A program made the translations under genes and the position numbers. A DNA stretch of 64,000 bases. Source: Glycine soja. Lineage: Eukaryota > Streptophyta > Magnoliopsida > Fabales > Fabaceae. Shown here in pieces: positions 22,641-54,499 of the stretch (its first letter is position 1; each line of letters starts with the position of its first letter). The notes under the pieces were generated by a model that was not told the origin of the DNA, ran no database searches, and saw nothing but the letters and a program-made list of their open reading frames with translations. The DNA is taken from the NCBI RefSeq assembly GCF_004193775.1, contig NC_041005.1, forward strand, positions 11,224,501 to 11,288,500. Direction: 5' to 3'.

Positions 22641-22642
22641 CC

Positions 22643-23502: not shown

Positions 23503-23960
23503 TCACACGCAAGAAGGGTAAGGTAATTGTGAAATAACATCTATTTTTGCAGGGTCTACCTCTATGCCCCTATTCAAAATGATATGCCTTAAAACTATAC
23601 CTTGTTGACATTTTTCAAAATTCAGCACAAGATTAGTTTCAATGCATCTATTAAGAACTCTATTCATACTATCCAAACATGCATCAAAAGAGGATCCATA
23701 AACAGTAAAATCATCCATAAACACCTCTATGCAAGTCTCTAAAAAATCACTGAAAATACTAAGCATACGCCGCTGGAAGGTACCAGGGGTGTTGCATAGG
23801 CCAAAGGGCATCCTCCTATAGGCAAAAATGCCAAAGGGACATGTGAATGTGGTCTTTTCTTGATTCTCAGGAGCAATATGAATTTGTAAATAACCAGAAA
23901 AACCATTAAGAAAGTACCTGGGTCCTTACATTTCTCAGGAATGTGAGGAATAGATTTACC
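23503..23960 (-). pseudogene. Ty3 reverse transcriptase, C-terminal half
   Basis: MPFGLCNTPGTFQRRM and the active-site stretch EVFMDDFTVYG identify RT of the Athila type. Upstream, another frame reads the preceding palm region (YKFILLL, in place of the usual GYxQI area). The N-terminal RT and the protease are absent: a deletion joins gag-side sequence (KCKDPGTF) to RT near 23925. Confidence 0.82.
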
Positions 23961-24134
23961 TATCAATGCTGACACGTTTCTGCCCATGCTAATCCTTTCA
24001 TTGCCCTTGAGCTTCCTTTTGTGGGTGCACAACTCCTTTAGAAACTTGGCATATCTTGGAATCTGCTTGATAGCATCTAGCAGAGGTATGTTCACCTCTA
24101 CTTTCCTGAAGGTCTCCAAGATCTCCTTTTCCGC

Positions 24135-25907
24135 TTATTCCATCTTTTTGTTTGGAATTGCTCTCTGTGGGAATGTAAGAGGGATAGGAGGCTGTTGTAA
24201 GTCAGAATTACTAGAAGAACGTCCAACTACATGAAAATTTTTGTTAGGAAGCTTTCTCTTTTGTGCAACTATCTCATCCTATTTTTCAGGTGTAGAATGA
24301 AGCTTGACAGGTTCAGGTGTAGGTGCTGCTACTGGTGGAGGCACTTGATTTTGGTTGCCAGACCTCAAGGTGATGTCACTCACATTTTTCGGATTCTGCA
24401 TAGTTTGTGAAGGCAATTTGTCAGAATTTTGGGACTGAGCTTGGTTCAACTGAGTAGCCATCTGCCCCATCTGATTTATTAGACTCTGAATGGAGGCTCT
24501 TGTCTCTTGCTGAAATTGCATATTCTGGATGGTCATTTGCCTCACTAACTCTTCTAAGGAAGGTTGAGGGGGAGCCTCAGTTGCTGGTTGTCTTTGTTGT
24601 GACTGCTACTGTTGTTGTTGCATTGGAGGAGGAACATATGGCTTGCTTGGACCAGCAACATTATGAAAATGAGGGACAAGCTGTTGTTGTTGTAGAGGAC
24701 TTGTCCATCTCAGATTTGGATGATTCCTCCAACATGGATTGTATCTATTGCTTGAAAGGTCATAATTATTCTGTTGTTGTTGGTTTTGCTGCTGAGGAGG
24801 TCTATTATAAATGTTTGCAGCATAAGCTTCAGGTTGCTCATTGACTCCAGATTGCTGCAAAGAAGGACAAAGATCTGTATGGTAATCTGTAGAAGAAGAT
24901 AGACCACAAAGTCTTACAACAGGTGTAGATTTCTGATTCATGGCAAGCTGAGTTACTAGGTTGGCCAAGGAATCAATTTTTCCTTCAAGCTTTTTATTTT
25001 CAGTAGATGAAGATGAATCCGTGGCCACCTCATGGACTCCTCTAAGAACAATAGCATCATTTCTTGCACTGAATTGGTGGAAGTTGGAAGCCATCTTCTC
25101 AATCAAATTCCTAGCCTCAGCAGGGGTCATATCACCAAGAGCTCCACCACTGGCAGCATCAATCATACTCTTCTCCATGTTGCTAAGTCCCTCATAGAAA
25201 TATTGAAGAAGGAGTTGCTCAGAAATCTGGTGGTGAGGACAACTTGCACACAATTTCTTGAATCTATTCCAGTACTCATACAAGCTTTCTCCACTAAGTT
25301 GCTTGATGCCTGAAATGTCTTTTCTGATGGTAGTGGTCCTAGATGCAGGGAAGAATTTCTCCAAGAACACCCTCTTAAGGTCATCCCAGCTGACAATGGA
25401 CCTGGGAGCAAGGTAGTATAACCAATCTTTTGCCACTCCCTCAAGAGAATGAGGAAAAGCCTTTAGAAAAATATGATCTTCTTGGACATCGGGGGGCTTC
25501 ATGGTGGAACAAACAATATGGAACTCCTTAAGATGCTTATGAGGATCTTCACCTGCAAGACCATGAAACTTGGGCAGCAAATGTATTAGTCCAGTCTTGA
25601 GAACATATGGAACACCCTCATCAGGATATTGAATGCACAAGCTTTCATAAGTGAAATCAGGTGCAACTATCTCCCTAAGAGTCCTCTCACGAGGTTGAGG
25701 TTGAGTCATGTTCTCAGTATGAAAATTAGTAGTGGAATATTCAAAATCAGAATATTCAGAATCACCAGCAACAAAATACTCAGAATGCTCAAAATGCTCA
25801 AAATGCATAGAATGATCAGGATGCACACTATGCCTAACTAATCTATGAAAGGTTCTATCTATTTTAGGATCAAAGGGTTGTAAATCACCTGGATTGCCCC
25901 TAGTCAT
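24135..25907 (-). pseudogene. Athila-like gag, 433 codons then broken by stops
   Basis: The frame starts MTRGNPGDLQPFDPKIDR and contains the retrotransposon gag core (LPKFHGLAGEDPHKHLKEF; AFPHSLEGVAKDWLYYL; KRVFLEKFFPASRT). A glutamine-rich, low-complexity tail follows. Stops at 24603-24605, 24276-24278 and about 24136 divide the downstream part, which still reads QMTIQNMQFQQETRASIQSL and ITLRSGNQNQ. Gag forms the virus-like particle (family knowledge). Confidence 0.82.
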
Positions 25908-26628
25908 GCACTATATGCAACAAATAATGTGTTTCTCAACAAGCACCTAACAAGGGGGTAAAACTATAGCTATACTTAAACGATATCCAAATGAGCTGAA
26001 ATTTTGTGAGGAACACCTTAAAATCACGAAAAGATAGCACAAAAAATTTCAAACAAAAATTCAAATTATAACTATGAAAACTACTTAAGCAAAGTTTAGA
26101 AAAATAGGACAATAATACTTGAAAAATAAAAAAAAAACTTAGTAAACGGCTGATTTTTGGAGTTTGGGAGACCCCAACCGGCTAAACCAAGTGATCATAG
26201 TAAGGGAAATTTTTTTCTACCCCAAATGCATATATAATAATAGTCATTCTGATACCCGGAGCAAAAGTTATGGCCGTTTTAAGTTTTGCTTAAAACAAGT
26301 TCCCAAAATTTTTGTCTCCCTCAAATACTGTCACACCAAGTACTCCTGGTATTTTTCACACAAAATATGGATCAAAAGAAGCTATCACACAAAAAATCAG
26401 CCAAAAATAACAACTCTAACTATCAAAACAAACATCGCTAATTAAATTGCAAAATCAGTCGCTAATTCCCAGTTGCTAATCACTGTTCACAGTAAAACAC
26501 AAAGCTGAATCAGCCGCTAAAACAGTCGCTAAAAATAGTCGCTAAATAGGGGACGCAACTGAAATGCAAAACAGAACGCTACACAAAACAAGACAACTAA
26601 ACACTCTTATGAACCTTTGGCCCACTGC
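25908..26628. other. Untranslated leader of the Athila-like element
   Basis: This lies between primer site and gag start on the minus strand. No frame is protein-like. It contains scattered GCTAA(A/T) repeats near 26450-26560 (AATCGCTAA-type words) but nothing else recognised. Confidence 0.5.
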
Positions 26629-26648
26629 TCCTCGGCAACGGCGCAAAA
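26629..26648 (-). other. Primer-binding site, Asp-tRNA type, mutated
   Basis: On the element strand the DNA after the LTR reads TTTTGCGCCGTTGCCGAGGA. It resembles the TGGCGCCGTTGCCGGGGA-type site of Athila elements with a few substitutions. Confidence 0.65.
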
Positions 26649-26650
26649 TT

Positions 26651-27713
26651 TGATCGAGGTCGTACCCAAATCAAATAAACATTAAAAATGCAGTATCTAG
26701 GAAGTGAGCCTAGGTCATCTCCCAACGAACAATGGTCAACCAAATGTTCATAACAGATAGTAATAAAACAGAAACCAATTGGGGGGGGGGTTGTTTGTTT
26801 TTGTAAATTAAACAGCAAGCAAATTTGAATTAGAAAATAACAGAATTAAAACATGTTGTTTCCCCTTGATTCACAAGGAAGTCTCTTATCTTAAGTTACG
26901 AGAATTTATCCTTAAATAGTTCAACCACTTAATCCTACCCTAAATTAAATTACTAAGCGAAAATTAACATAAGGCTGTCATTATGTGATTAAGCAACACA
27001 TACACCAATTAATCATGAACGAAACTGATCATTAAGCATGAACGTAAATTAAGCGCAGAGACAATTAATCAAGCACTAACTATGCATGGATTAATAGCAA
27101 CAAATCCAGAGTAATTAGTGAAGAGGAAAAACTTATCAGAATTCAATAGTAATAACAAAACCTCAAAGAGAGTTGTGCTTGATCCTTAAGAGAAGACAAC
27201 ATTGGGGACTTAGCCTTCCATTAATCAGCAGAAAACAAAATTGCAGATTGAAGCAGAAAACGAATTTTATTGCTAGGTGAATAGTGCGCATGAACAGTAA
27301 AAACTGGAATTGCAAAATCCTAGAATTATTCTCCTCTCCAAACGAAAAAACTCCTTAAACTAAAACCTTGGTGTTGTTTTAAGTCCAAGCCCATAAATAA
27401 AATAAAATCTGGACAAGATAAGATAAGATTGGATGAAATAAAATTTGGATAAGATAAGATAAGATTGGATGAAATAAAATCTAGATGAGATAAGATTTGA
27501 TAAGCTAAAATTGTCTGTTATCTTCAAGTCCAAGCCCAATTCCAGATTCAAGCCCAATTGCTTATAATTCTCCTGAAATTAAATTAAAAACACAAAATTA
27601 GTCAAGTAGGCCCAAATGATAAAACTGCATAATTAATTTGACAATTAAGGCTAATCAGTAATTAAAATGATGACAAAAAGGGTTAAGAAATAGGAGAAAA
27701 TAATGACACATCA
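26651..27713 (-). repeat. 5' LTR of the Athila-like element
   Basis: It is homologous end to end with 20020-21111, beginning TGATCGAGGT and ending GACACATCA on the plus strand. It has a G-run at about 26780, a short insertion near 27240 and a shorter GATAAGAT block. Confidence 0.8.
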
Positions 27714-28010
27714 AATCCCCCCACACTTAGCCTTTTGCACTCCTAGGCAAAATTAAAAAAACAAAGCAAGGAACAAATTCAGAGACATTAAAGAGAAACA
27801 AATAAACACAAAAACAATTACATATTTCTTAATGAATCTCAAGGAATGAAAGGAATGGGCAACATCCAACATGTAGAGAGTTAAAGAATCAAGACAATCA
27901 TGAAAATCATCCAAGCATCTCAAACATGACAAGATAGTCAATCAGCTCAAGAATGAAAAGTGATAAAGTCCACAAGATATGCACTCTATCTCTCAAGTGT
28001 CTAGGCTACT
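27714..28010 (-). mobile_element. Second copy of the Athila-like 3' internal end, abutting the outer LTR
   Basis: Polypurine tract and following sequence match 21112-21413 nearly base for base, yet they lie outside the right LTR. This means a second element shared that LTR (tandem arrangement) and was truncated at 28010, where unrelated sequence starts. Confidence 0.8.
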
Positions 28011-28290
28011 GGTAAACGATTACAATATCAGGTAATCAATTACCAGTGCAAAAATATTTATTTTTGTACTAATAAAACATTTTTTAAAGCTTTATATAAA
28101 CATTTTGAAAATCAAGCTTTGAGGCCAAACCTTATTAACCAATGTGTGATTCTTTTAACAAATAAACTAAGACCTTATCTTTTTCTTGATCTTGTTTGCT
28201 TGATCTTGAATTAATCTTGAAGCAATCTCTGTTTGCTTAACCTTAAATGTTTCTTGAAGGAATCTTGTTTGCTTATACTTTGTCATCATC
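28011..28290 (-). mobile_element. SIRE-like LTR fragment, minus orientation
   Basis: It contains GTAAACGATTAC and GTAATCAATTACC variants of the GTAATCGATTAC palindrome. On the minus strand it has TGATGATGACAAAGTATAAG followed by runs of CAAGATC/TTCAAGA words, similar in style to the LTR at 30137-31594. It is truncated at its junction with the Athila copy. Confidence 0.4.
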
Positions 28291-32150: not shown

Positions 32151-32519
32151 TAGGAAGGGAAGGAAAAACGAATTTGAGAGATGAGAGAGTGTAAAGATGT
32201 ATTGTAAATGTAAAAGTTGATCTAATATGTCTCTATTTATAGCTAGGATACTCTTAGTCTATTGTTTACTCTATTTTTTTATTTTATAAAAAAGAATTAT
32301 ATTTTACTTTCTATCACACGAATAAATAAAACATCTTTTTTTATTTTCTAAGAATATATATTTATTTTATTTACCTTAAAACCATTATTTTAATTAATAA
32401 AAATATTTCTCCTTATTTATTTAATTACAAAAATCTCATTATTTTCCTAAAACTCTATTTATTTTTAAATAAAATCCTTTTTAATTTATTTTACGAAAAA
32501 TAGCCACATCTAGAATCGT

Positions 32520-32968
32520 TTGATAAGAAGGCTTTGGTCAGCTTCTTGAGAACTACAAACCTCACACACATGTGCAGACTTGTCCACTATTTTTTGCTCA
32601 ACACAATGATGCTTAGACTAGGATCAAGAGACCATGTACGCGACAAAGATAGATTATGCATGTATAAGGTGATGGTGGATGAAAAGGTTAATCTGAATGA
32701 AGTCATCTTTTTCTACTTGCTTCAAGCATTCAAGGACAGATTTCATGCCAAAGGCAAGAAGAACCTTGTTCCTTATAGGATATTGTTGACTAAGATCACA
32801 AGGAACAAGAGGGTAGATGTGTCTATGTTGGAACCATTTGTAGGTGCCACACAACTCAAAGGTGTGACCTTTGTCAAAATGGGAATAGTTGACAAATTCC
32901 TTGAATATGCTCAAAAGCATATCAAAAGAAAGGTCAAGAAGGAGCTAAGGAGGAACCATGATATGTGA
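32520..32968 (+). pseudogene. Plant-transposon-type protein, second fragment
   Basis: An open frame of about 145 codons carries LGSRDHVRDKDRLCMYKVMV, LNEVIFFYLLQAFKDRFHAK and LVPYRILLTKITRN, a hydrophobic/basic pattern found in non-autonomous plant retroelements. No catalytic residues can be assigned. It continues the protein cut off at 28596. Confidence 0.5.
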
Positions 32969-33399
32969 TTGGACAAACGAAAAGAGCTCAAGAGCAGCCA
33001 ATAGATCAAGAGTCTGGAGTAGCGTCTCAGTAAACTCAGGGGGAGTAAGCTTAAGCCAAGCCAAAACATTCTAAACCTAGCTAGCTTAGACTCAAACTTC
33101 CTACCAAAAGAAAAGATCCCATCCACCATCATTTGACCCTAAACCCTTAAACCAATCAAAGAAACCCAAGAAAGAACCATTATCTAACTTCAAACCTTCA
33201 GATCCTTAAATAACCTAAAAGAAGAAGGAACCAGACTCTATGTTTGAACCTAAATCATAGCCCCCACCAAAAAGACTAACCATAAAACTCTTTAGAGAAG
33301 GATGCTATACAGGAAGAAGTCTGCATCATTGCATATGTGGAAGTCATATCCATGGAAGAACATAAGAAGAAATTGGTTGAAGATGCAAACCTGAAGGCC

Positions 33400-35640
33400 T
33401 TGGCAGGAAAAGTTCTTTGAAGAAATTCAAGAAGATGTTATTTTGGAATCTCTAAAGATCCTATTTGTTGAGGAGGTGCAGATGAAAATAGTTGAAGAGG
33501 CAACCATGGTTGATATTGATGGTGAGCCATTGCCTGAGGAAGTAATTGTAGAGTCCAACCAGGCACAGTCTAAACTTAAAGCCAAGCAAGCTGAAATGGA
33601 AGGGCTTTAGAGGATTCAGTCTGTTGTTGAGCATGGAGCTAAATTATTCTTTGTAGATGTTGTTGTAAGACACACATGAGTTGAAGTGGCTTTCATCCCT
33701 AATGATTTGGACCTAACAAAAAAGGAAGCTCTTGAAGAAGTTATGGTCCAATCTATCATTGAAGTTTTTCTCTATGAGTCTGAGGACAACATCATTGAGA
33801 TAAACCCTGGTGTTGAACCTGTTAGATTAAGGCCAGTGTCTAAAGCTGATGAAAGACAAGTCGACGTTGATTTGTTTGGAATAATGGATTAAGACAGAAT
33901 CAAACATTTTGAAGCTATCTTTGGATCACCAACATCTGTTACTATCGCAGATGTACAGACTGGCTTGGAAAGAAGAAAAGTGTTGCAAGCCACTAAAGAA
34001 CCTATCAGATTGACAAATCTCTTTTCTAAACTTGATTATCCTCTAATGAGGAAAGATCAGTAGCGAACCATTGAGTGGCTTCTTCCTTCAAGGTCTCTGC
34101 CTCCACTAGCACTTTCATAGGATGTTCCTACTGAACCTTATATGAATGTCAGATTCTACCCTGGCTTCTAAGGACATAGAGTGTTGGAATGGCAAACCTG
34201 CAACAAAGTCTGGAAAGACAAAGTCAACATTAGGACTCATGCTCTTGATCTAGAGATGCAAAAGTTAGAGTTGGAAAGGCTCAATCTTCTTAAGCTCTAG
34301 ATGGAAGGGTTTTCCAGGTATTAATCCTTATTCTTATCAATATTGGGAAACACTACTTGAAGAAGAAGAGTATGCTCTTGGAGTCTATGGAGAAAAAGTC
34401 CACATCTTCAAGACGTTCTCGACAGGCTGTGGCGCCTAATCATAACAATCTAATCTTTCGGCATCTGCCTACAGACCACAAGATATACACCCATTGTGCT
34501 AGCGTCTAAAGAAGTAGAGAAGTTGAATATGATGACATGCCATTCTCTACTCCCCTAGATTTACAATAGCTGATGGGTCTTCTATGTAACTTCAATGTTG
34601 TTCTTCCATGGTATTGATTTAAGTCTGAAGTTACTTTCTAGAATAAAGAAATCTTATTGAAGGCTTCTAAAGAGAGTATGAACTTTCTAGACTATGAGCA
34701 ATCAAATTATGGCCCTGAGTTGAGAATGAAGCTATATTCTTACAAATAAGAGATTAGATCAAGGCAAGCTTCCTTTCGTAGAATCCAAAGGCTCAACACT
34801 CACATGCCTTTCATATTGGGGGTAAGAATTCTTTTTCCTAACTACTTCAAAGACTCACTTTCAAATAGCAATTGACAAGCCTGTTCTGTATCAAAAGGCC
34901 AATTGCTACAAAGGCAATGAGTTGCTAATTGAAGACAATGGAGATGTTGAACTTGTTAGATTTGTTAGAGCTTGACTTGACCATCTGCTCAAACATGAGC
35001 TTGAAACTCTCAAACACGAGTTTGAGATCACAAATCTGGATGTATATGCCATGGGAAGTTTCCACAGGCTACAAGAATGTTGTTCTGGTTTGGGAGGAAA
35101 AGCCAGCTGTAGATGCCTATCACCATGAAGTTGGGCAATATTATCAGACTCTGAACCACACTTGCTTTACTCAAGAAACTCCCTTCAACATGCTTTACAC
35201 ATGGAAGAGGGAATTTTATGGTGAGTCTAATTGCACCTTATTTTTTTGTGGCGTATTTGCCCTTTTGTAGATTCTTCTTCACATACCATGTGGATCCTAT
35301 CATTGAAGAAGTTGAATCTGGTGTTGAAGTTTCTTTTGACTCCATGGTTGTTCCAGTATATGATCCTCCACCCTTTCGTTCCTGTGTTTGTCTACTTGAA
35401 GTGGAACTAGTCAGAGCGAGGGAAGCCTTTGCTCAAGTCTTGAAGGATCGCGCTCATGTTGAGAAGGAAGTCCATAAATGGTCTTTGATTGGTGACTACT
35501 TCTACAAGAAAGCCATTGGATGGAAACCTCATTGTCCTCCAACACCACCTGGTAGCCCTATTCTTTCTTATGATAATGAGGACTCTGGTGATGAGTTTCT
35601 TAACGAAGAAGTTGCCAAACAAAAGGGGGCGAAAAAGTAA
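33400..35640 (+). pseudogene. Degenerate internal coding region of the retroelement, function unrecognised
   Basis: Open stretches at 33686-33892, 34929-35270 and 35218-35640 have protein-like composition separated by stops. The last ends in a charged helical and Pro-rich tail (ELVRAREAFAQVLKDRAHVE; CPPTPPGSP). I cannot name them. Their position just before the polypurine tract suggests the 3' end of the element's ORF. Confidence 0.4.
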
Positions 35641-35975
35641 AAGATTGAATCTCGACATCATTTGAGGGGGAGTGACAAAGTCTAAAGAAAACATTAATTC
35701 AGGGGGAGTTCTTGTGGTTATTTCTGCCTTGAAATTTTATTTCGTACTTAGATCATATCTTCTTGATGTGAAATTCTTGATATAAATAAAATAAGATGCT
35801 TTTTGGTAATTATTTAAACTTTATCCCAAAGTCTTATGAAGTTGTGTGATCTGTTTATCTTATTTATCCTCTACATTTGATAAGATTGTCTAATGCTTTA
35901 ATGATATATCTTATAATTTCTGCCTTTATCATTTTTAAATTTGTGTTTGTTTGACATCATAAAATAGGGGGAGAT

Positions 35976-38815
35976 TGTTAAGTCAAAAAGACATTCTGTC
36001 TTAAAGACGAATCAAAACCCTTAATTATTTTGATTTGGTGTAAATAAATACAAAGGTTAAAAGTTGCATCTTATGCAAAATCAGCATTTGATATTTGTAT
36101 TTGATGATTTATCGAAACATGTCTGAGATGTCTGCGTCTAATGTTTCAAACGATAGGAAAATAGACTCATGATCTGATATGACATTTAAGATGACATTTA
36201 AGACTTCATTTAATACTGTGTGCTTGAAATTTCTTTTGCAGAAAAATTCTCCTAAGATCCATCAAATCCTATGAAGAATAAATGAAGTCAAGGTTTGAAA
36301 TTCCTCAATTGCCATCAAAAGAAGAGCTCTATTGTACCATACCTGCTTTGACATAAAGGAAGTGACTATCTATTGTAGTACTCAACACACAAACTTCGAA
36401 GAATGGACTCTCTGCATGAGGAAAGGGCATGCATTTAATGCCCCAACAGCCACATTCATTAGATGAAGATCAAGTGAAGAAATCTACCCTTTATGAGACA
36501 ACGAACAATTAAAGATAAGACTTATATAAACCAAAAGCTTTGAAGAATTAGTGTATCAACCTTGCACGAAAAAACATTCATTATTATTTTCGCAAAAAAC
36601 TTTCAGTATATTCTTGTAAAGTCAGGATACCTTGAACATATTGACATAAAAAGACAAAGTGTTAATTGTATATTTATCTATAAGACGATTCTAGATTTAG
36701 TCTCTGTGCAAACTCGAACTATAAATCTCTTCTGATTTGTTTAAAGCTAACAATAACTTGGTAGGACAAAGAATACTGGGTGTTAATCAAACTTGTGCAA
36801 AGCTTGATTTGTAGAGTCATAAGTGATTGTGAAGTCAAGATTTGAAATTCCTCAATTGCCATCAAAAGAAGAGCTCTATTGTACCAGACCTGCTTTGACA
36901 TAAAGGAAGTGACTATCTATTGTAGTACTCAACACACAAACTTCGAAGAATGGACTCTCTGCATGAGGAAAGGGCATGCATTTAATGCCCCAACAGCCAC
37001 ATTCATTAGATGAAGATCAAGTGAAGAAATCTACCCTTTATGAGACAACGAACAATTAAAGATAAGGCTTATATAAACCAAAAGCTTTGAAGAATTAGTG
37101 TATCAACCTTGCACGAAAAAACATTCATTATTGTTTTCGCAAAAAACTTTCAGTATATTCTTGTAAAGTCAGGATACCTTGAACATATTGACATAAAAAG
37201 ACAAAGTGTTAATTGTATATTTATCTATAAGACGATTCTAGATTTAGTCTCTGTGCAAACTCGAACTATAAATCTCTTCTGATTTGTTTAAAGCTAACAA
37301 TAACTTGGTAGGACAAAGAATACTGGGTGTTAATCAAACTTGTGCAAAGCTTGATTTGTAGAGTCATAAGTGATTGTGAAGTCAAGATTTGAAATTCCTC
37401 AATTGCCATCAAAAGAAGAGCTCTATTGTACCAGACCTGCTTTGACATAAAGGAAGTGACTATCTATTGTAGTACTCAACACACAAACTTCGAAGAATGG
37501 ACTCTCTGCATGAGGAAAGGGCATGCATTTAATGCCCCAACAGCCACATTCATTAGATGAAGATCAAGTGAAGAAATCTACCCTTTATGAGACAACGAAC
37601 AATTAAAGATAAGACTTATATAAACCAAAAGCTTTGAAGAATTAGTGTATCAACCTTGCACGAAAAAACATTCATTATTATTTTCGCAAAAAAACTTTCA
37701 GTATATTCTTGTAAAGTCAGGATACCTTGAACATATTGACATAAAAAGACAAAGTGTTAATTGTATATTTATCTATAAGACGATTCTAGATTTAGTCTCT
37801 GTGCAAACTCGAACTATAAATCTCTTCTGATTTGTTTAAAGCTAACAATAACTTGGTAGGACAAAGAATACTGGGTGTTAATCAAACTTGTGCAAAGCTT
37901 GATTTGTAGAGTCATAAGTGATTGTGAAGTCAAGATTTGAAATTCCTCAATTGCCATCAAAAGAAGAGCTCTATTGTACCAGACCTGCTTTGACATAAAG
38001 GAAGTGACTATCTATTGTAGTACTCAACACACAAACTTCGAAGAATGGACTCTCTGCATGAGGAAAGGGCATGCATTTAATGCCCCAACAGCCACATTCA
38101 TTAGATGAAGATCAAGTGAAGAAATCTACCCTTTATGAGACAACGAACAATTAAAGATAAGACTTATATAAACCAAAAGCTTTGAAGAATTAGTGTATCA
38201 ACCTTGCACGAAAAAACATTCATTATTATTTTCGCAAAAAAACTTTCAGTATATTCTTGTAAAGTCAGGATACCTTGAACATATTGACATAAAAAGACAA
38301 AGTGTTAATTGTATATTTATCTATAAGACGATTCTAGATTTAGTCTCTGTGCAAACTCGAACTATAAATCTCTTCTGATTTGTTTAAAGCTAACAATAAC
38401 TTGGTAGGACAAAGAATACTGGGTGTTAATCAAACTTGTGCAAAGCTTGATTTGTAGAGTCAGAAGTGGTCGTGACACAATACTTGTCACTTATGAGAAG
38501 TTAGTGGAATTTAATGTTTTGCCAAAAACTAAATGTAGTCTTAGTGGTAGAAATAAACCAATACAACTCTCTGAGTCTTATTTACTTTCCCTTTGCTTTC
38601 AATTGACCTAAGGTTTGAATTTGTTCTTAGTCTTTTGCAAACATCTTGTGCTTAACATGTTTGTTTTCCATCATTTGATTGTGTTTTTCAAAAGATCTAT
38701 TATCTGTTTTTGCAAAGTTTCTTCACTAGACAAAAACTTAGATTGATTGTGAAAATGCTTTAAAAATTTCTAAAATCAGAATTCAACCTCCCTTTTTGTG
38801 ATATTTACCTTTACA
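35976..38815 (+). repeat. 3' LTR enlarged by an internal tandem array
   Basis: It starts TGTTAAGTC after a GGGGGAGAT polypurine tract and ends CCTTTACA. Without the extra tandem copies it would be about 1.2 kb. It contains the TATA-bearing core promoter within the amplified unit. Confidence 0.65.
36284..38473 (+). repeat. Four tandem copies of a 547/548-bp unit containing the LTR promoter
   Basis: Units start at 36284, 36831, 37378 and 37926. They are almost identical: the differences I see are ATACC/AGACC, AAGACTT/AAGGCTT, ATTATTATTT/ATTATTGTTT and one extra A in the CGCAAAAAA run of the last two. Each unit holds ACTTATATAAACC (a TATA box, e.g. near 36511) and the downstream transcript-start region. 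The array ends where GTAGAGTCATAAGTGAT changes to GTAGAGTCAGAAGTGGT. Confidence 0.95.
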
Positions 38816-38999: not shown

Positions 39000-39331
39000 T
39001 AAATACCTATTTTGGTTCTTGAAAGTGTGAGATTGTGACAAATTGATCCCTAAAAGATGTAAAATTCAAATTTAGTCTCTTAATATGTAAAATGTGCAAC
39101 AAATTTGTCCTATAGTTAAATTTGTGAGATCATTTTGTGATTAACTTGCAATTAAGTTGTATCTTTTGAGGACCAATTTGATGTAAAGTTTAGGAATCAA
39201 TTTGTAATTAAATTATTCGTAGGACTGTTTTGTCGTACTTTTTGTATATTTGGGACTAAATTTGAATTTTACATTTTAAGGGACCAATTTATCATGGTCT
39301 CACACTTTTAGGAACCAAAATGAGTATTTAC
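39000..39331. mobile_element. MITE with terminal inverted repeats of about 80 bp
   Basis: The left end AAATACCTATTTTGGTTCTT reads on through TGTAAAATTCAAATTTAGTC. The right end is its reverse complement with about 15% mismatch, leaving a short middle. No transposase fits. Long TIRs suggest a Mutator-type or unclassified MITE. A target duplication is not clear. It lies about 370 bp upstream of the TIM44 start codon. Confidence 0.75.
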
Positions 39332-39492
39332 TGTTTCTTTCATTATTCCATTGCAAGGGAAAGGAAGGGGGTAAGCAAAAATTATTTCTAGAAAGTTATA
39401 AGAATATATTAGAAGGATATTTAAGAGAAATGAAAAGAAGAAAGAAATGGGAGGTATATTCATTAGATAGGGGAGGTATATTTATCATTTGC

Positions 39493-39500
39493 AACCCTAA
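39493..39500 (+). promoter_or_regulatory. telo-box (AACCCTAA) in the TIM44 promoter/leader
   Basis: AACCCTAA lies about 200 bp before the TIM44 ATG. Telo-boxes are common near the start of plant genes for translation and mitochondrial biogenesis (established knowledge); function here is inferred from position. Confidence 0.45.
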
Positions 39501-39700
39501 GCCCAGAGCGCAAGATACAAAGAGTAAGCAAGTACACTATTGATTCTCTTTCTTCTTGCAGCATAGCACAACACAGCAGTTACGCAAGGTCTTTATTTGT
39601 TCTTCCTCAAGCACCGGCAACGCAAACGGATGCATTACAAAAAATAAAATGAGATAAGAAATTAAAAGAAGACGACGTTCTCTCTTGGTTTTGATTCCCA

Positions 39701-42700
39701 ATGGCAACGCGAAAGCTGATTCGTGATTTGTTACTCTCCAAACGATCCCTTCTTCACCACCAGGTTCCTTTTATTTCATTTCCTTTTTAACAACAAATTT
39801 TATCTCTCTTTTTATATTTATTCATTTATTTACAGGGTTGGAGTAGGAGTAGAAGGTTACCTTTGGTTTGGGAAGATAGGCGTAGATACAGTGTCTTCAA
39901 TGAGTTCTCTAAGAACATTAAAGGCCAAGCTGTTAGGTATTCATTCCTCTCTCTCTCTCTAAGAAAATTTATTTGGAGATAACAAAATGAAAGAATAGAC
40001 CTAACCTTTTGTATTTGGAGATAACAAAGCTTGAGCTTCTAACTGTTTATGGATTTCATGGCCTTGTATATTTTGTCTTGTTGATTCTTTCTGAAGGGTG
40101 TTACGTTATGCCCTATTTGTTTCTTGTCTTTGATGGTTGCAGAAACCAAGAATTCCAACAGTCTGTCAAGGAGCTGAAAGAAAAAGCAGATGAACTTAAA
40201 GGGGTAAAAGAAGAGCTGAAAGAAAGGTAAGTGTGTTACTGATTAATAGGCTGAGACATACCATTATATGTCAAGGCTGGCTCAACACTTCAATGGAGGG
40301 CCTAAGATGGTTAAGTGGATAATGCAGAACAAAGCAAAAAACTGAGAAGCTGTACAAACAAGTGGATGAAGCGTGGACAGAAGCTGAAGCTGCTGCAAAG
40401 AAGGTATAATCGAAGGTCATCTTCAATTTCTACTCTGGATTAGTAATGGAAATTAGTTATGAGAAAAGGGGGTAAAAAAGAACCTCACTTCTGATGCTCT
40501 GTAGTCTTATTGGAAAATGCTATATAAACAACTCTAAGGTGTTCATCACTGCATACCTAGAGTACAAAGTCATTGGAGAGCATGTGTAATTGTGTAGAAG
40601 AGTCTAATGCGACCTTACACTCTAGGTACCCATTTAATGGTATAAAAATGTTTTTTTTTTGTTAGGTAAAGTGATGCATACCTTGGATTGCTATTTATCT
40701 TTTCATTCTTCCCTTGTTTGTTTGTGCAGCTAAATGCAATTGTTATTAAAGTTGTTGATGGGAACATGGGATCCATATATCTATTTTGAATAAGCTGACA
40801 TGCTTCCTGGAATTTAATTATACATTTTGCAGGTTTCTTACAATGTTAAAGAGAAGATTTCAGCTGCATCAGAGGAGGTCTGTTTATGATTTACAACTCT
40901 GTTGGTGAATATGATTGACCATTGATAGGTTATTGGCATTGCTCTTGTTAAATTAGGTGAAGGAAACTTTTGGGATAGGAAAGCAGGATTCTTCAGGATC
41001 AACTGATTCTTCAACAAAACAGGGTGCTGATGCAAATGGAGGAAATCAGACATCACGTGAGGAAGAGAAAAATCAGCAATCTGGGTCTAGTAAGGATGCT
41101 GATTCGTTGTTTGGCAAATTTAAATCAACTATTTCCTCTCCAAATGTTTCTGCTGCCTTCCAAAAATTAAAGGATGCAAAGTTAGTTGACATAACCAAAA
41201 AAGGTTATGACATAGTAAAAGAGGAGTTAAGTAGTACCCCGACTAAGAGAAAGCGAGTTCCTTTTGCATCAAGTGGTGAAACAAGTACAAGAACAGATCT
41301 TGTTGTTATGCCATCTAAACAATCTTGGTGGAGTAAGAAGTTTGATGAGTTCAGGGAGAAGGTAAACTTAGTTGCAGTTCTTTTTTAATTGGATTGTCGG
41401 GAAAAGCATTCCATTGAATTATCTTCTCTGCATTTTCATAAAGGTGAAAGGCCATCCAGTATCCAAGCGATTCCTTAAGTATAGTGACCCAGTGAAGACA
41501 AAGGGCCAGGAGGTATGTTCTACTCCCGACTCCACTCCTGAGGTTCTTTATTCTACTAAAATAATTATTCCTTTGACTGCACTTTGTTGTATAACAATAT
41601 GATATATTGTGCAGCTTGCCTCAATTGCATTCATAAATATTAGTGTCCTATGTGATAATTCATGATTGTGAATGGAGGGAATATGTTACATATTTAACTT
41701 CTGAGTCACCTTTTGTTTGCATGCTATTTTATATATATATTGGAATTGACAGATAGTAGAGGACTTGCGGGAAAGATATGAGACCAGTGACAGCCCCATT
41801 ATTCACAAAATACAGGAGTATGTCATTGAGTTTCTCTTTGCACTTATTCTTGTTCTTGGAAATTAGAACTACCAAATGATTGGTTACTGTTAATAGTTAC
41901 ACATGCTGCAATATTTGTCTGGTTATAGCATAGTTGTCAATACCGGCGTAACGGAGTGGAGTGGCCGACCCCAAAAGTGGGATAGCAGGATAGCGGATGG
42001 CGGGATGACCGCTTTTCTAATGTGTTTTTTTATACATGTTAAATAATTAATAATATGTATATATATAAGTTCAAAAACAGTAAAATAACTAAAAACATAG
42101 TTACTTAAACAAAAGTTACAAAACAAAAAGTTACATTCTCTTTCATGCACTCAATTATCACAAAAGTCCAAAAAAAAAAATCATTCATGATTGTATGATG
42201 ATAGAGAGCTCATTTTATCATCTAATGTAACCAATTAAATACAAAAAAAGCTCCTGTCATTTTATCATCTAACGTAACCAATTAAAATGTATAAAAATTG
42301 AAACCAACAAAAATTGAAAAATTAAACAAAAGTTCCTATATTCATCGGAACTAAGTACAAAAAGATTAAATGAACCACGTACCCTAGAATGGTAATGACA
42401 TACCCATTTCATCCCAGAAAACAAATAACACACCCATCGAAAAATAATAATAATAGTATAATACACAAATACTTCATTATTTTAAATGCTTCAACATTTC
42501 ATATTTCTTTTTATCTTTTTTTATCACATTCTGTTTAGGTATCAACTAGCACATTGGATATTCATATAACATTTTTTAAAAAAAATAATAAAATCACACG
42601 CATTAATACAGCTAGCACTTCTCACTTGGCATCATTTCATTCAATTTTCACTTCTCATATTGCACGCCTTCCTCACCATACAAAAATTGAAACCAACAGC

Positions 42701-45700
42701 TCATGGCACCCACAGTCCCACACTGAAAAAAAGGGCAATTAAATAATTAGGAAAACAAAAAATATAGGAAACCTCAAGCAAGGTGGCGGCGCAGCTCTAC
42801 AGTGTCACAGACTCGCGTGCTCCTGGGCGTGGAGGAGGTGGCGGCGCTCGCCGGTGTCGCAGCGTCACCGGCGTCGCAGCGTCGTTTGGGTCGCAGCCTC
42901 GCCGGGGTATCGCAGCAACGCTAGGTCTGGAGAGCAGCAAGGTTTTCGACTTCCAGCAACGCAAGCCCTGACCAGGTAATACCAAAACAAAAATATCAAA
43001 AATACCCTCACTTTCCCGCATTAAGTGAGGGCATTTTCGGAATTTCCATGGCTTCACTGTAGCGGCACAAAAATCTGGTCCAAATCCTGCGCCGCTCCGC
43101 CGCGATAGTGGCCGCTCCAACCGCGCCGCTATGTCTGTCCCCGTCGCGGATGGGTGCCGCGCCGCTCCGCTCTGCCGCGACGCCCACGATTGACAACATA
43201 GGGTTATAGTCTAAATAGTAGTAATGTAAGATGCAAATTTAAGTACTAATTTACCGCACTTCTTTTACAGTATCAATGACAGTATGTTTCAAGAGACAGA
43301 TGCTGCAATTTCTTACAAGGAAATACGTCAACGGGATCCGTAGGCTTTCATGCCTTTTGTTTTTCTATCTTGGTCTTAGCATTTTATTGTTACTTTAATT
43401 GCTAACATCTTTTTTCTTTTATTTTGATTACATGGACCAGTTATTTTTCATTACCAGAATTTGTTGGGGAAGTACAGGAGGCAATAAAACCAGTGCTTAA
43501 TGCTTACATCAAGGTATAATCATTCCATATTTGAATTTGGCATAAGTTTATAGCCATTAGCCAATACTTATTTAGTATCATGTTGTAACAAATGACACTT
43601 GTATCACTTATAATCGCTTTTACATCTCATTGTTAGTTAATCTGTTAGCACCTATCTTTCTTTTAGAACAAATCCTCAGCATCATCGCCAGTTGTAAGTT
43701 GTAACTGAAATGAATATTTTCATTCCAAGCCAAGTGTTTAATCTTTACCCTTCCAAAATAAGATAATAGGGTAAACTGGATGATGGTGATGTAAGGTTTG
43801 AGCAACAAATATGTATTACAGTTTGAGATCTAAGTTATAGATTATAGATAATTGGGCTATATATATTTTTAATTATAATGTTTGATTTGCTCAATTGATG
43901 ACAAATTGTAATCATTAGGCAAGAGCCTTTTTTTTAATAATCATTTTGAAAAGGAAAACCTTCAATTAGGTTAAACTATTGGATTTAATGCTATGTTTAG
44001 TGAGAATCATTTAGTGAAAAAGAAGGGAAGTGTTGTCATCAAATATTGCTTAAGAAAGAAAACGGTCTGCCTGGTTGGATGTGGGGGGTCCATTAGCATG
44101 AAATGGTGGTTTGAGGATTTGGACTTCGGAGATTTGAAGTGTGTAGTTGCAGTCATTAGTTAAAGCTGGAGAAGTTGGCTAATGAAGTGGAAGAAGTTGA
44201 CCAATTAAATTATAAGTTGTTAAAAAAATTGTTATGTGCATCACTTGTTAATACAAAACCTGATAGCAATGGACAAAGTACTATGTCTAAGATTTGCTCT
44301 AAATCTATTAGTTGGTTGAGCAGATGCATTTATGATTTATGAATCAGTTTTTAATTATATATACAGGGAGACGTTGAAACATTAAAGAAGTATTGTAGCC
44401 CTGAGCTGATTGAACGTTGTAAAGCAGAGCATAATGCTTACCAAAGTCATGGTATATTCTTTGATAACAAGGTGAGATTCACATTTTTTTGAATCTTTAT
44501 TGTTTCTTTCTGTTCAATTACATTTTGTTTTGAATGAGGTTGATAGTACCATACCATATTGAGCATGTTAAAGTGTTCCCAAAAAATGTGTTTTCATTTT
44601 AACTCAACTTCTTGAGTTCTTGATAGTATATTTGATACGGTTAAGTGAAGAAAAAAAATTCATAAAATGAAATAACCTTGTATCTTCTTTGCTTGAACCA
44701 AAATTCAATCCTGATCAACTTGATAAAATATAACATAGGTAACATGGGTTCCGTCTTCCATGTGCAAATGATATAATATAGTTAGCTAATAGCTGTAGCT
44801 CAAAATAGAGTGGGAATGTGGGAGTATGGAACAAATATTTTCTATTAATGAAGAGAAACAGGACTGCTCCAAGTGCCATTTAGACAAGTGTAAAACATGT
44901 GGTTGTACACTTGTAGTTGTACTACCATTTACTTGTGTATCATGTGTCAAACTTTCACAAGTTATAGACTTGTTATTTTCCAAATGTTTTCTCATTTATC
45001 TCCTCTAACATGTGAATGAAATATGAAAGAAAGATTTTCTAAGGTTGGATCATAGTTTTACTCATAAATGATGCAATTCCATTTTACTTTTTTTCTCTCC
45101 GAATTTATCTTGGTTAAGCCAGTCTGACATCCTCTTGTGAATCTTACCCAATTATTTATACAGAAAAATATGATTAAGGTGCTTGTACCTACTAGGACTA
45201 GGCTATATAGTGTTTTTTATGTATTTAAATATTTAACTCTGCAGATTCTGCATGTATCTGATCTGGAAATAAGAGAGACCAAGATGATGGGCTCATCTCC
45301 AGTAATTATTGTAATGGTATGTAAATTATTAGTTCCAGAAGTTCATTGCTAATTTAGAAAATTTATTCTTATGCGGTAGAAATGAAAACTTACATGAATG
45401 ATTTTGTTAAATGAATTTTCACAGTTTCAAACTCAGCAAATCTATTGTGTACGTGATAGGAATGGGGCAATTACAGAAGGAGGCAAGGTAAATGCTGCGT
45501 TTTTAATGGTTTATATTTTTTAATTGCTACAATGTGAAAATGTCATATCAGTAAAAATTTCATGTAGTTTTTAACGTCCTATTTGAGAGAGCGGGTGCCT
45601 CTTTATAGTGTTAACTTTCTAATTCCATTAGTTTGCAAATTTTGCCTTCCTTTCCCCTCAATAATCTCAATGTAATTTGTGCCCATTCGTTTCCATGTTG

Positions 45701-48700
45701 AGCTGTTGATGTTCTGTCACCAGCTCATGCATCTCCTATCTATTAGAAATTATGGAAGGCATGGATCAAGTAAAGATGAATGGTGTATGTATTTTTATTT
45801 TTCACATTTAAATAAATATATAGTTATATACTATGGAAATGTTAGAACTCACAGTCACAGTGGTATGAAAAGCAGAAATTCAATATAACAGTGTTATTTA
45901 ATATGAAAGATAGCAGAAAGCTAGTACAGGAATTTAGAATGACAACCTGAGTGTGTGACTCCTTTTCCAGAGAAATATTTTCCTAAACAACCACCATTCC
46001 CCCCTACTCCTTTTTTCTCTCTCCTCACCTCCTTACATACTCCACCCCCTAACAGAATTTGTTAGAATCTCCTATGCCACTTTATGTAACTAACTCGCAC
46101 TCCCTAATCCTATTTTCTTTCTCCTAGAATAAACTTTCCATATAATGGGCCTATGTGACTCCTCACCAATATGAATATCAGTATGAATATTAGTATTATT
46201 CACTGGTGTCCTATCATTACTCCCCCCTGAAGAAACAGCCTTGTCCTCAAGGCTAAGTGCTTGAAATTGACTTTTCAGCAATGCCTCATCTTCCCAGGTA
46301 GTATCCTCAGCTGCTCCGCCCTTCCATTTAACCAGCCACTATTTGACTGGCTGCTCTCCTTCAAATATCTCTCTTGAAGCCAACAACTCCTCAGGTTCTT
46401 CATTTTCCTCCAACTCCATCTCCAACCCTTCAGGTAAAGATGCCTCTGCAGAATAACTCCCAATTGCCTTCTTCAATTGAGATACATGAAAAACGGGGTG
46501 CACCCTAGCTTCGTCTGGCAGTTTCAGTTTATACGACAAGCCCCCACCCTCTCCAAAATTGGGAAAGGTTCAAAGAACCTCGGAGCCAATTTCTGGTTAA
46601 TCCTCCTAGCTACAGTCATTTGTCTGTGAGGTTGGAGTTTCAAAAACACCCACTCTCCTACCTCGAATGATAGGTATCTTCGTTTCTTGTTAGCGTATTT
46701 CCTCATCAACTCTTGAGCATGAGTCAGGTGATGTTTCAACTATTGCAGTGCCTCATCTCTATCCATCAATTCTACTTCCACTGCTTCCACCCTGGTTTCT
46801 CCTTGCAAAACTCGAACCAATGTAGGAGGTTTTCTCCCATACACAGACTCAAAAGGAGTCACTCCAGTAGACACATGGAAGGTAGTATAGTACCACAATT
46901 CTGCCCACAACACCCAGAATGACCAATTCTTGGGCTGTTCAGATGCAAAACATCGCAAATAAGACTCTAAACACCTATTTACTTCCTCTGTCTGTCCATC
47001 CGTCTCGGGATGATACGAAGAGCTCATTTTTAGGACAGTACCCTGCAGTCGAAACAACTTCCAAAACAGGCTGACAAATAGAGGGTCTCGATCACTCATT
47101 ATTCACTGCTTATCCCATGTAAACGCACTATTTCCTTTGTAAACACTTCAGCCACCTTTCTATCTGTATAGGGATGGCGCAAGGGTATGAAATGAGCATA
47201 TTTGGATAACCTGTCAACCACCACAAATACTGCTTCAAATCCTTTAGACTTAGGGAGTCCCATGACAAAGTCTAAAGATATATCCTCCCAAATTTGAGCT
47301 GGAATTGGGAGTGGCTGCAGCAGACAAGCCGGTGATGATGCTGAATACTTTTGTCCTTGGCAAACGTCACAACTCTTCACAAAGTCCTGAATGGTAGTTT
47401 TCTTGCCTACCCAATATAAATTTCCTGCAACAATATAGGAATACAAGAAGATTTGGAGGACAGCACCAACCTATTCTAGTAGAATAACACTCCTTGTTGC
47501 AAGCTAAACATCGGCTGTGAAGCTGGATTCTCATGCAAGTCAGCTATCACCTGTTTTAAGAAAGGGTCTCGAAGAACTTCATGCTGTACTTGCTGCTCTT
47601 GCATCCAAATTGGAAATGAAGTGATGCTTTTCAAATCACCTTCTTCATATATGCGAGATAATGAATCAGCTGCTTTATTGTCCGGCCCAGGTTTGTAAAT
47701 GACCTCAAATTGGTAACCCAAGAGTTTAGCTATCCAATTTTGTTGGTCAGCTGTAGTAATCCTTTGTTGCAACAAGTGTCGAAGGCTTTTTTTGATCTGA
47801 ATACACCACAAATTTTCTACCCTGCAGGGGTCACCAGTGCTGCACTGCCAACACCAACACCATCAATTCCTTCTCATATGCTGACTTGCTTAAATTATTC
47901 TCGGACAAGGCCTTGCTGAAATATGCTATTGGTTTCCTGTTTTGCATCAACACAGCTCCTACCCCTCTTCCGGAAGCATCGCATTCAATTTCAAATGGTT
48001 GATTAAAATCTGGAAGTGTCAACACAGGTGCTTGAGTCATCACCCCTTTTAGCTCCTCAAAAGCTTTTAATGCTTCTGTTCCTCAATTAAATCCTTCTTT
48101 CTTTTCCTTAATTCCGTGAGTGGCTTAGCCCGCATTCCATACCCTGTAATAAATTTTCTATGGTATCCCGTCAAACCCAAAAAAGCCCGTACACCTTGAC
48201 ATTATGAAGTACAAGCCAACTCACAATACTCCTTATTTTTTCTGGATCCACAGCCTCACCTTTTTCTGAAATTACATGATCCAAGTACTCCACTTGCCTT
48301 CTACCAAAGGCATTTTTTCTTATTAACCACTAATTTGTTTTCTTGAAGCGCCTTCAGAACTTGTGTTAGATGCTCCATATGTTCCTTCCATCCTTTGCTA
48401 AACACTAGAATATCATCAAAAAACACCAATGCAGTTTTCCTTAGGAAAGGTTTGAACACTTGGTTCATGGTAGATTGGAAGGTAGCTGGGGGGGCATTGG
48501 TCAACCCAAACGGCATAACCATAAATTCATAATGCCCTTCATGTGTGCGAAAGGCAGTTTTATGCATGTCCTCCTCCTTCACCCGGATTTGATGATACCT
48601 TGACTTCAAATCCAAATTAGGGAAATATGTAGCACCATGTAGTTCATCCAAAAGTTCCTCTACCACCGGAATGGGGTATTTGTCAGGTATCGTTACCTTA

Positions 48701-51083
48701 TTCAGCTCCCTATAGTCCACACGCATACGCCACAATGCATCTCTTTTTAACTAATATCATGGGACTAGAAAAAACACTGGAACTATGCCTAATAATTCCC
48801 TGCTCCAACATGTTCTGCACTTGTTTCTCAATCTCCCCTTTGTGATGGTAGGGATATCGGTATTGTCAAACCCAGTGCTGTTGCGACTTGAGGCGCGATG
48901 AAGTTGTGGCTTGCGCCACTGTCAGCCAACACCTAAACACAACACCCCTTACTTTTCCCTCCAATCACATTGTTGTGGGTCGTTTCATCGTCTTCATACC
49001 TTCGGTCAGCCCAAACACTCCCATAATATTACAATCTAGGGTTGCTTCATCTTCGTCGTCTCTTACTTCTATGGCTATCACCTCCCCTTCTGCGATAACC
49101 ACTTCGTTGTTCCCCAGGATAACTAAGTGAAACTGTTTCTCTGTGCATTGGTGCAGTGGGTGAAATCGCTCTCCACATTGAAAACACAAACCGCAAACCT
49201 TACCATCCATCAATTCCGAGTATGGTAAATGTTTAATATCTCTGTTTCGAGGGTTGTTGCCCCTTCCTCCTTCATCTCTTTCTTTTTGCACCGAATTGGA
49301 GCTTGAATTAGGGTTCACATTGGATCCAGATTGCATTGTCTGAGTTGGGTCACTACTTAAAGGCCCTGACCTGAAAGTTCCTTTATATGGGCCTGAGTTA
49401 TAATGTGACCCACTGTCGCTTCTTGCACCAGAAGGAAAATTTGACCTAACACCTCTTTTTCCACCCGATCCAGGATCCAATTCTCGACCTCCCCTCCATT
49501 GTATCACACTCCCACTGATATGTGGCATCAAAGAGCCACGCAACTTTGCCTCAACATCTTGCGCTATCCTCATCGCTTGAACACAATTTTTTGGGTTGAA
49601 AGTTCTCACTCGCAGTCAAATCTTTGACTTGAGGCCCCTCATGAAATACCTCAAATATTGTTCTGCGAGAAGATGACCCACCTGGGAGGAAACAAACTCA
49701 GTCTGTGATATACTTATCAACATCACCCACTTGCTGCAAATCCTTCAGTTCCTCTAATGGATTATCACTCTTCCTCCATATCGTTCAATCAACGACTTCT
49801 TCTGTTTAGACCATGTGAGTGCATCCTCAGTCTCACATAACAAGTTGAACCAGTGAATAGCCGAACCCTCCATACTGAGCTTCGCTAACCTCACTTTCAT
49901 CTCCTCCGATGAACCATGCACCTCAAAATAGGTCTCAGCATGGGTAATCCATCCCACCAGGTCCTCCTTGTCAAATGGTGGAAGCTCCACCTTCTTCGCC
50001 GGCATTTTGTATTCTAACACCGATTCTGTACTGAACGATGGTGAGCGGGTCTCATCATTGACACAACAGTCTTGCAATTTGGCGAACTCCGTCATCAAGG
50101 AGCGACAAAACTCTTCCATGGACTGCGTCAAGGAGTTCTCCAGCGAATTCATTCTTGCCTCCAACACGTCAACTCTCTCCGTCATTTTTGGTGGCATAGA
50201 ATCTCCTGAAGTATGCTAGTCGTGTCTCGTATGTATCCAGCAGGTCTCGTATGTATCCAGCAGGTCGGACCAATGTTAGAACTCACAATCAGCGGTATGA
50301 AAAGCAGAAATTCAATATAACAATGTTATTTAATATGAAAGATAGCAAAAAGCTAGTACATGAATTTAGAATGACAACCGGAGTCTGTGACTCCTTTTCC
50401 TGAGAAATATTCCCCTAAACAGCCACCATTCCCCCCACTATTTTTTTCTCTCTCCTCACCTCCTTACATACTCCACCCCCCAACAGAATTTGTTAGAATC
50501 TCCTATGCCACTTCATGTAACTAACTCGCACTCCCTAATCCTATTTTCTTTCTCCTAGAATAAACTTTCCATATAATGGGCCTATGTGACTCCTCACCAA
50601 TATGAATATCAGTATTATTCACCGGTGTCCTATCAGGAAATGCTCGGTTTCATAGATGCACTATATATAAAATGGTTTGTTCTGTAAAGAGAGACATGCA
50701 AATGGCTTAATAATTACACCCCTTCTGGTTCATATCATGTCTCTATGCTCCCTGCTCTCTTATCTGAGGCTTTAGCTTTGATTTTTGTTCATGTTTTTTG
50801 TTGTCCTAATTTGAGTAGTAAATTTATAGTGTTGTCAATATACAAGTTGACGTACAACATAATCTGAGACTTGTCTAATAATACCGTTTTCATGAAGTGA
50901 ATGCAACCTTGCTTGTCTGGTTTTAACAATGATTTTTTTTTTCTTTGCTAGGATACAATCCACACTGTATTCTATTTTTGGGCATTACAACAAATGGACC
51001 AAGAAGATCGTGGAGAAGATGGTATTTACCTAATGTGGAGACTCAGAGAGATGCAACAGCAAGGCATCCAAGCTCTCATCTAG
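39701..51083 (+). CDS. TIM44: Mitochondrial inner-membrane import protein TIM44
   Basis: Fourteen coding exons: 39701-39763, 39836-39936, 40143-40226, 40328-40403, 40833-40877, 40957-41361, 41444-41512, 41753-41817, 43271-43339, 43441-43513, 44367-44471, 45245-45316, 45425-45487 and 50952-51083. They sum to 1422 nt (473 codons plus TAG) in perfect phase. The N-terminus ([20 protein letters not shown]) is an Arg/Lys/Leu-rich presequence. A Lys/Glu-rich coiled region follows ([13 protein letters not shown]), and the C-terminal Tim44 domain begins near [19 protein letters not shown] and ends [23 protein letters not shown]44 tethers mtHsp70 to the TIM23 channel in the matrix (family knowledge). 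The gene looks functional despite transposons in introns 8 and 13. Confidence 0.95.
41929..43201. mobile_element. hAT-like non-autonomous element in TIM44 intron 8
   Basis: It is flanked by an exact 8-bp duplication GGTTATAG (41921-41928 and 43202-43209). The ends share GTTGTCAAT in inverted orientation: CATAGTTGTCAAT on the left, ATTGACAACATAG on the right. Subterminal regions are GC-rich with CCGCTCCGC/GCGG words, and the middle is AT-rich. There is no transposase. An 8-bp duplication and C-initial ends point to hAT. Confidence 0.8.
42783..42975 (+). other. GC-rich insert inside the hAT-like element, possible captured gene piece
   Basis: About 190 bp of high GC with GGCGGCG and GTCGCAGC repeats sits in AT-rich transposon sequence. 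One frame stays open through it, but composition rather than similarity is the only hint of coding origin. Confidence 0.3.
45840..46216 (-). repeat. 3' LTR of the chromovirus
   Basis: On the plus strand it runs TGTTAGAACTCAC to GTGTCCTATCA. It has a 12-bp duplication (ATGAATATCAGT/ATGAATATTAGT) that the other LTR lacks. Confidence 0.9.
46270..46540 (-). pseudogene. Chromovirus integrase tail and chromodomain
   Basis: [16 protein letters not shown] is the integrase C-terminal motif. A Glu-rich linker follows, then [17 protein letters not shown], the core of a chromodomain. Chromodomains steer integration to particular chromatin. A stop lies between linker and WLVKWKG. Confidence 0.75.
46524..47446 (-). 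pseudogene. Chromovirus integrase
   Basis: Reads [10 protein letters not shown] (second half of the zinc finger), [17 protein letters not shown] (first catalytic Asp), [19 protein letters not shown], then [15 protein letters not shown] (second Asp) and [19 protein letters not shown] (catalytic Glu). A break near 47099 separates the halves. Confidence 0.88.
47476..48060 (-). pseudogene. Chromovirus RNase H
   Basis: [18 protein letters not shown] and [10 protein letters not shown], then [18 protein letters not shown], are RNase H motifs. Downstream [17 protein letters not shown] and NKAADSLSR follow in another frame. A frame change occurs near 47815. Confidence 0.85.
48160..48760 (-). pseudogene. 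Chromovirus reverse transcriptase
   Basis: [47 protein letters not shown] and the active site [13 protein letters not shown] are all present in one 144-codon frame. Upstream RT and the protease region (48760-48960) are broken. Confidence 0.9.
48965..50197 (-). pseudogene. Chromovirus gag with zinc knuckle
   Basis: The frame starts [20 protein letters not shown] (coiled coil). It contains the capsid-like [20 protein letters not shown] and, after a break near 49610-49750, a Ser/Gly-rich region and the knuckle [14 protein letters not shown]. Confidence 0.85.
50224..50273 (-). repeat. Primer-site region with a 20-bp direct duplication
   Basis: GTCTCGTATGTATCCAGCAG occurs twice in a row (50224 and 50244). 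Next to it, TTGGTCCGACCTGCTGG abuts the 5' LTR on the element strand and is the likely primer-binding site; I could not assign the tRNA. Confidence 0.6.
50274..50635 (-). repeat. 5' LTR of the chromovirus
   Basis: It is homologous to 45840-46216 with small indels, begins TGTTAGAACTCAC and ends GTGTCCTATCA on the plus strand, and is followed by the target duplication GGAAA. Confidence 0.9.
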
Positions 51084-54400: not shown

Positions 54401-54499
54401 ACATAATATTATCATTATCTTCATATCCTAATGGAATAGTCTCATTAATTTGAAGATCATGACCATTTTCATACTCCAACAAAATATTTAAAATTGATT

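Follow-up and report, generated by a model that had tools for sequence, protein, structure and literature searches.

How does a stretch of promoter sequence come to stand four times, head to tail, inside a single LTR, and is such an array a local event, a trait of a retrotransposon family or the beginning of a satellite? This question is raised by a locus in the window analyzed here, a stretch of 64,000 nucleotides (C4:11224501-11288500 of the source genome). The initial annotation described four near-identical tandem units of 547/548 bp, each with a TATATAA box, and both self-BLAST and alignment bear this out within 36284-38473: the six pairs of units differ by 4, 2, 5, 2, 5 and 3 substitutions, the self-BLAST identity among units is 98.9-99.4%, well above chance, and every unit contains exactly one TATATAA. 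The tandem-repeat run was limited to periods of at most 500, so that the array is absent from its output. The coordinates of the units are exact except for a TGA that can be assigned to either side of the junctions:

36284-36830, + strand: unit 1, 547 bp; TATATAA at 36523; two private substitutions toward the left end
36831-37377, + strand: unit 2, 547 bp; TATATAA at 37070; two private substitutions
37378-37925, + strand: unit 3, 548 bp; TATATAA at 37617
37926-38473, + strand: unit 4, 548 bp; TATATAA at 38165; three private substitutions at the right end

The differences among the units are concentrated at the outer ends of the array. All seven substitutions are private to a single unit: unit 1 departs from the others at positions 10 and 57, unit 2 at positions 237 and 303, and unit 4 at positions 538, 544 and 546. 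Unit 3 has no private base but shows its own combination of states, and it does not differ from unit 4 in the first 537 positions. An A-run with one additional base in units 3 and 4 relative to units 1 and 2 is the sole two-against-two site, and a length change of this kind can recur. Read from unit 1 to unit 4, the states are G/A/A/A at position 10, T/G/G/G at 57, -/-/A/A at 311, T/T/T/G at 538, A/A/A/G at 544 and T/T/T/C at 546; each of these six sites switches once along the array, and only positions 237 and 303, where unit 2 stands alone, behave otherwise. The chance that three private sites all fall within 10 bases of one or the other unit end is, calculated post hoc, about 1.5e-5, and that of two private sites within the first or last 57 positions, likewise post hoc, is about 0.02.

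To place the array among its relatives, the source genome (1,013,641,977 bases in 1119 contigs) was searched with unit 1, yielding 45 matches, a lower bound given that 40 of 737 candidates were scored. Four of these matches are the array itself, and the remaining 41 rows represent 39 places, which are dispersed LTRs with 71-82% identity to unit 1; two of them also match in a further short piece (76% and 85%). All 39 were retrieved with a flank of 2.5 kb on each side and, with these flanks included, none carries two unit matches of at least 450 positions; the array as a family trait is thus rejected. The distal U3, the unit and the U5 follow one another unbroken in 29 of the 39 relatives, the other ten being interrupted, truncated or too diverged on one side. 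Moreover, when up to 3 mismatches are allowed, the 31-base sequence across the junction occurs in 1.01 Gb exactly three times, each time within the array, and the reversed-pattern control gives no occurrence in the genome. We thus found no second array among the scored places and no junction elsewhere in the genome with 3 or fewer mismatches, and the suggestion that the locus is the seed of a satellite array finds no confirmation: a satellite would form long arrays or occupy several places, and here there are four units in one place. Small duplications of their own are present in two of the relatives, one of 141 bp (96%) at 2999-3279 of L019 and one of 72 bp (89%) at 2643-2796 of L038, and LTRs related to the host of the array may be prone to local duplication.

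The same relatives help to define the LTR that hosts the array. The features of this LTR and of the element to which it belongs are:

35976-38815, + strand: 3' LTR, 2840 bp, beginning with TGTTAAG and ending with TTTACA; ends compared with the relatives
35976-36283, + strand: distal U3, single copy, 308 bp; contiguous with the unit in 35 of 39 relatives
38474-38815, + strand: rest of R plus U5, single copy; AATAAA at 38552; unbroken after the unit in 33 of 39 relatives
35966-35975, + strand: terminal PPT AGGGGGAG plus AT, abutting the TG of the LTR
33038-33045, + strand: upstream PPT octamer AGGGGGAG, identical copy
35665-35672, + strand: upstream PPT octamer AGGGGGAG, identical copy
35701-35708, + strand: upstream PPT octamer AGGGGGAG, identical copy
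32504-35640, + strand: broken linker/envelope-like region, Sirevirus-like, upstream of the LTR

Among the 30 relatives whose match reaches the respective end, the TG that starts the LTR is at the same place in 27 and the CA that ends it in 22. A PBS follows the LTR in some relatives: GGTATCAGAGCT stands after the LTR end in two of them (L030 and L042) and is degenerate in two others (L014 and L026), and a further relative (L024) has a second, diverged LTR downstream. Together with the PPT and the position of the TATA box, these shared ends uphold the earlier view that the host of the array is an LTR. When only one unit is counted, its length is 1198 bp, and the TATA box lies near the middle, at base 548, a position characteristic of Sireviruses.

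Further features were compared with those of Sireviruses. The octamer AGGGGGAG is located exactly 10 bp 5' of the 3' LTR and is followed by AT/TG (35966-35977), which is the arrangement of PPT and attachment site described for Sireviruses in PMC2829016, and there are several identical upstream octamers, most of which lie no more than 0.5 kb from the 3' LTR. Another copy of the octamer is present at 24567 on the + strand, beyond the element, and none was found on the - strand. An inverted repeat flanking the terminal PPT receives weak support, with a gapped score of 15 against a shuffled mean of 9.7 (sd 1.8), a score reached by 1.8% of 500 shuffles; its right arm begins about 50 bp within the LTR, the average given in PMC2829016 being 28 bp. 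CGG and CCG are absent from the distal U3, unit 1 and the U5, and a short C-rich stretch, a candidate for the integrase signal of Sireviruses, can be read by eye near the 3' end of the LTR. The abstract of PMC2829016 presents the CGG-CCG motif as a trait of the genus; its text speaks of 'RM-containing Sireviruses', a subset, and for this reason we do not count the absence of the motif as excluding a Sirevirus. Given this absence and the weak inverted repeat, we term the element only Sirevirus-like.

The element is truncated at the 5' side, and its left end is lost. We failed to detect, within the window, its 5' part including the coding region or a 5' LTR homologous to the 3' LTR, and there is no 5' LTR partner at high identity among the scored genome places; searches of viral contigs and of genome contigs likewise gave no relative. 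What persists is a remnant without the parts required for autonomous transposition. The linker region, called envelope-like from its position, has stops in every forward frame (35, 74 and 75), and its ORF 32504-32965 has a weak match to PF20167 (E 4.7e-6, 27 bits against a curated cut-off of 45) and 14 homologues, of which three are named, all of them from Glycine. A PBS-like motif, TGGTATCAGAGC at 14734, was weighed as a candidate for the element's 5' junction and dropped, as no LTR-homologous stretch adjoins it and it follows, downstream, a set of pararetrovirus-like genes on the + strand (8332-13563; zinc knuckle, reverse transcriptase and RNase H pieces) that is probably an endogenous caulimovirid. 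Other elements in the window include a methyltransferase ORF (15354-16469), for which the two top matches have 96% and 92% identity, the best named match among the best 120 of 452 is to Vigna radiata (83%) and no name among these 120 is Glycine; a terminal repeat pair of 88% identity at 20019-28011 that encloses a gypsy-type gag and, as read by eye, a reverse-transcriptase-like ORF, both on the - strand; and a second set of direct repeats at 54490-56431, AT-rich blocks of about 0.3-0.6 kb with 90-96% identity, for which self-BLAST shows no similarity to the LTR array.

With respect to the age of the array, the K2P distances between units are 0.0037-0.0092 (mean 0.0064), and that from the array to its nearest relative is 0.178. 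Because the units differ by 0.4-0.9%, as against 18% to the nearest relative, the array appears to be recent or homogenised, as had been proposed. At a substitution rate of 1.3e-8 per site and year, these distances would correspond to approximately 0.14-0.35 million years for the units and 6.8 million years for the nearest relative, with the proviso that homogenisation can lower the apparent age of an array below the true one. It is plausible that the array is far younger than the decayed interior of the element. Within the scored places, no two of the retrieved relatives are closer to each other than 0.151, a distance that argues against recent transposition in this branch of LTRs. A query with 39400-41400 matched only itself and ten short pieces, and accordingly no intact duplicate of the neighboring gene region was detected.

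The junctions offer hints on how the array was built. All three are identical (...TTGT|GAAG), and the breakpoints on the left (...AAAT|GAAG) and on the right (...CGT|GACA) have TGA in common, a 3-base microhomology that is, by itself, weak evidence for the mechanism of duplication. In the 39 relatives, position 538 is G in 26, A in 9, T in 3 and a gap in 1, and given its rarity the T at this position of the junctions is probably derived. At positions 544 (G 23/A 12) and 546 (C 25/T 11) both states are common, leaving their polarity ambiguous, and L009, which is the nearest relative, carries A, A and T at 538, 544 and 546, so that two of the junction's three bases may predate the array. As for the remaining sites, position 57 is G in 29, A in 8, T in 1 and a gap in 1, the T of unit 1 being rare; position 303 is C in 29, A in 6 and T in 4, the G of unit 2 occurring in none; and positions 10 and 237, like 544 and 546, show mixed states.

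From these observations we infer the order of events, the mechanism of exchange and the age of the array. The best explanation, which we regard as fairly probable, is a single duplication in an old LTR followed by growth through unequal exchange. The starting point would have been a Sirevirus-like LTR, probably old already and devoid of a 5' partner, in which one tandem duplication of a 547-bp stretch, comprising the proximal U3, the TATA box, the transcript start and part of R, was joined via the TGA microhomology. The resulting dimer would then have grown to four units by unequal homologous exchange between the copies, either crossing-over or gene conversion, a process that would copy one junction threefold and keep the units alike while the outer ends retain their differences. 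In the simplest history, one duplication would be followed by two unequal exchanges that copy the junction. The single switch per site along the array is as predicted for unequal exchange starting from a diverged dimer.

The main rival, which we judge unlikely, is a one-step origin, in which a small circle, formed by excision or copying of the stretch, underwent rolling-circle amplification and was recombined homologously into the same LTR. Such a process would likewise make the junctions identical and leave the outer ends in their original state. Moreover, that all seven substitutions are private to single units is also compatible with a one-step fourfold amplification and later mutation; taken by themselves, the substitutions are consistent with either history. 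It is the two-against-two difference in the A-run that the rolling circle does not predict, and it requires more special steps. Quite improbable, in our view, is the alternative that template switching during reverse transcription made the array, which was then inserted as such. The unit spans the border of U3 and R, which would be a site of strand transfer, and abnormal strand transfer has been hypothesised for the 3' UTR repeats of Ogre (PMC7004042); however, the units are less than 1% apart as opposed to the 18% that separates them from the nearest copy of the family, no second array-bearing LTR is present among the scored places, and the junction is confined to the array in the genome. More doubtful still is an assembly artefact concealing a real chromosome with fewer units, an explanation for which the identity of units 3 and 4 over their first 537 positions could be adduced but which is at odds with the bases found in only one of units 1, 2 and 4 and with a window that contains no N.

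The array presents four TATA boxes in one orientation, and the initial annotation took them for equal promoters. This equality does not hold, because only unit 1 has the whole U3 5' of its TATA box: promoter 1 alone retains the distal 308 bp and hence the full U3, and promoters 2-4 have about 240 bp of U3, preceded by R-side sequence of the previous unit. There is no AATAAA within the unit, the next one downstream being that at 38552, so that transcripts from the first three promoters would read through the later units. A likely outcome of the proposed duplication and exchange is a promoter with several start sites, either silenced or of low activity, in which further exchange could alter the number of copies. 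Downstream of the LTR lies a gene:

39701-45520, + strand: TIM44-like gene; 39701 is a putative ATG read by eye, and 45520 is the end of the last piece tested

The putative ATG is about 0.9 kb past the LTR end and in the same orientation. Tim44 Pfam matches were obtained for three of the seven pieces tested, all below the curated cut-off (44355-44489, E 3.8e-6; 45398-45520, E 0.017; 45128-45349, E 0.28). Between the LTR and the gene there is a MITE-like inverted repeat (39000-39330) with 56-nt arms that are 82% complementary. Right after the TIM44-like exons, a terminal repeat pair of 92% identity with a reverse transcriptase on the - strand (45838-50635) may occupy an intron of the gene. At C9:217068-217247, two TIM44-like pieces that are 138 bases apart in the window adjoin each other, as in a processed pseudogene. 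It is conceivable, if highly improbable, that the array is a natural switch resembling that of FWA, with a copy number that varies between accessions and sets the expression level of the TIM44-like gene, which resembles genes for mitochondrial import; such a switch would act via RNA-directed methylation or read-out transcripts.

The significance of the locus lies in a tandem array caught at an early stage: there are four units and a single founding junction, and the order of changes can be read in part. Because it is a single locus accompanied by dozens of single-copy outgroup relatives, the transition of a dispersed LTR into a tandem repeat can be tested in a pangenome, and, should the copy number vary, so can the proposition that promoter repeats near a gene attract silencing. 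Transgenic tandem repeats of regulatory elements are reported to be prone to RNA-directed methylation (PMC11500991). The titles and abstract openings listed in literature searches yielded no description of a promoter array of several units in a Sirevirus LTR, and one may already be in print.

Several known systems offer parallels. Among them are the tandem repeats CRM4TR and CRM1TR of maize, which stem from centromeric retrotransposons (PMC3648361) and the monomers of which were likewise taken from the LTR region. CRM4TR, like the array, has a TATA box, and its three full-length cDNAs start 18, 40 and 43 nt past that box (PMC3648361). For the CRM repeats, too, a start by illegitimate recombination, with trinucleotide matches in the model for CRM1TR, and growth by gene conversion have been proposed (PMC3648361). 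However, they belong to Ty3/gypsy elements, combine LTR with UTR, number tens of monomers and reside in the centromere or pericentromere, and the CRM4TR monomer measures about 1.4 kb (PMC3648361), whereas the present array is Sirevirus-like (copia) and gene-adjacent, with a monomer wholly internal to the LTR and four copies. The FWA promoter of Arabidopsis (PMC3431836) shares with it tandem repeats around the transcript start in a promoter derived from a transposable element, but there a SINE is involved and the repeats have been shown to be methylated and silenced. Expandable tandem repeats within legume LTR retrotransposons are also present in Ogre and Gmr9 (PMC7004042, PMC3305785); these, in contrast, lie between the coding region and the 3' LTR in many copies, some of them now satellites, rather than inside the LTR at a single place. 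Furthermore, the tandem LTR-retrotransposon structures described in PMC11899658, which are reported to be highly polymorphic, also arise by tandem repetition of retrotransposon sequence, but in them whole LTRs alternate with internal regions, whereas here part of one LTR is repeated. Thus, this kind of structure is already known from CRM4TR and FWA, and what is new is the locus: four units, joined by one and the same junction, within a Sirevirus-like LTR.
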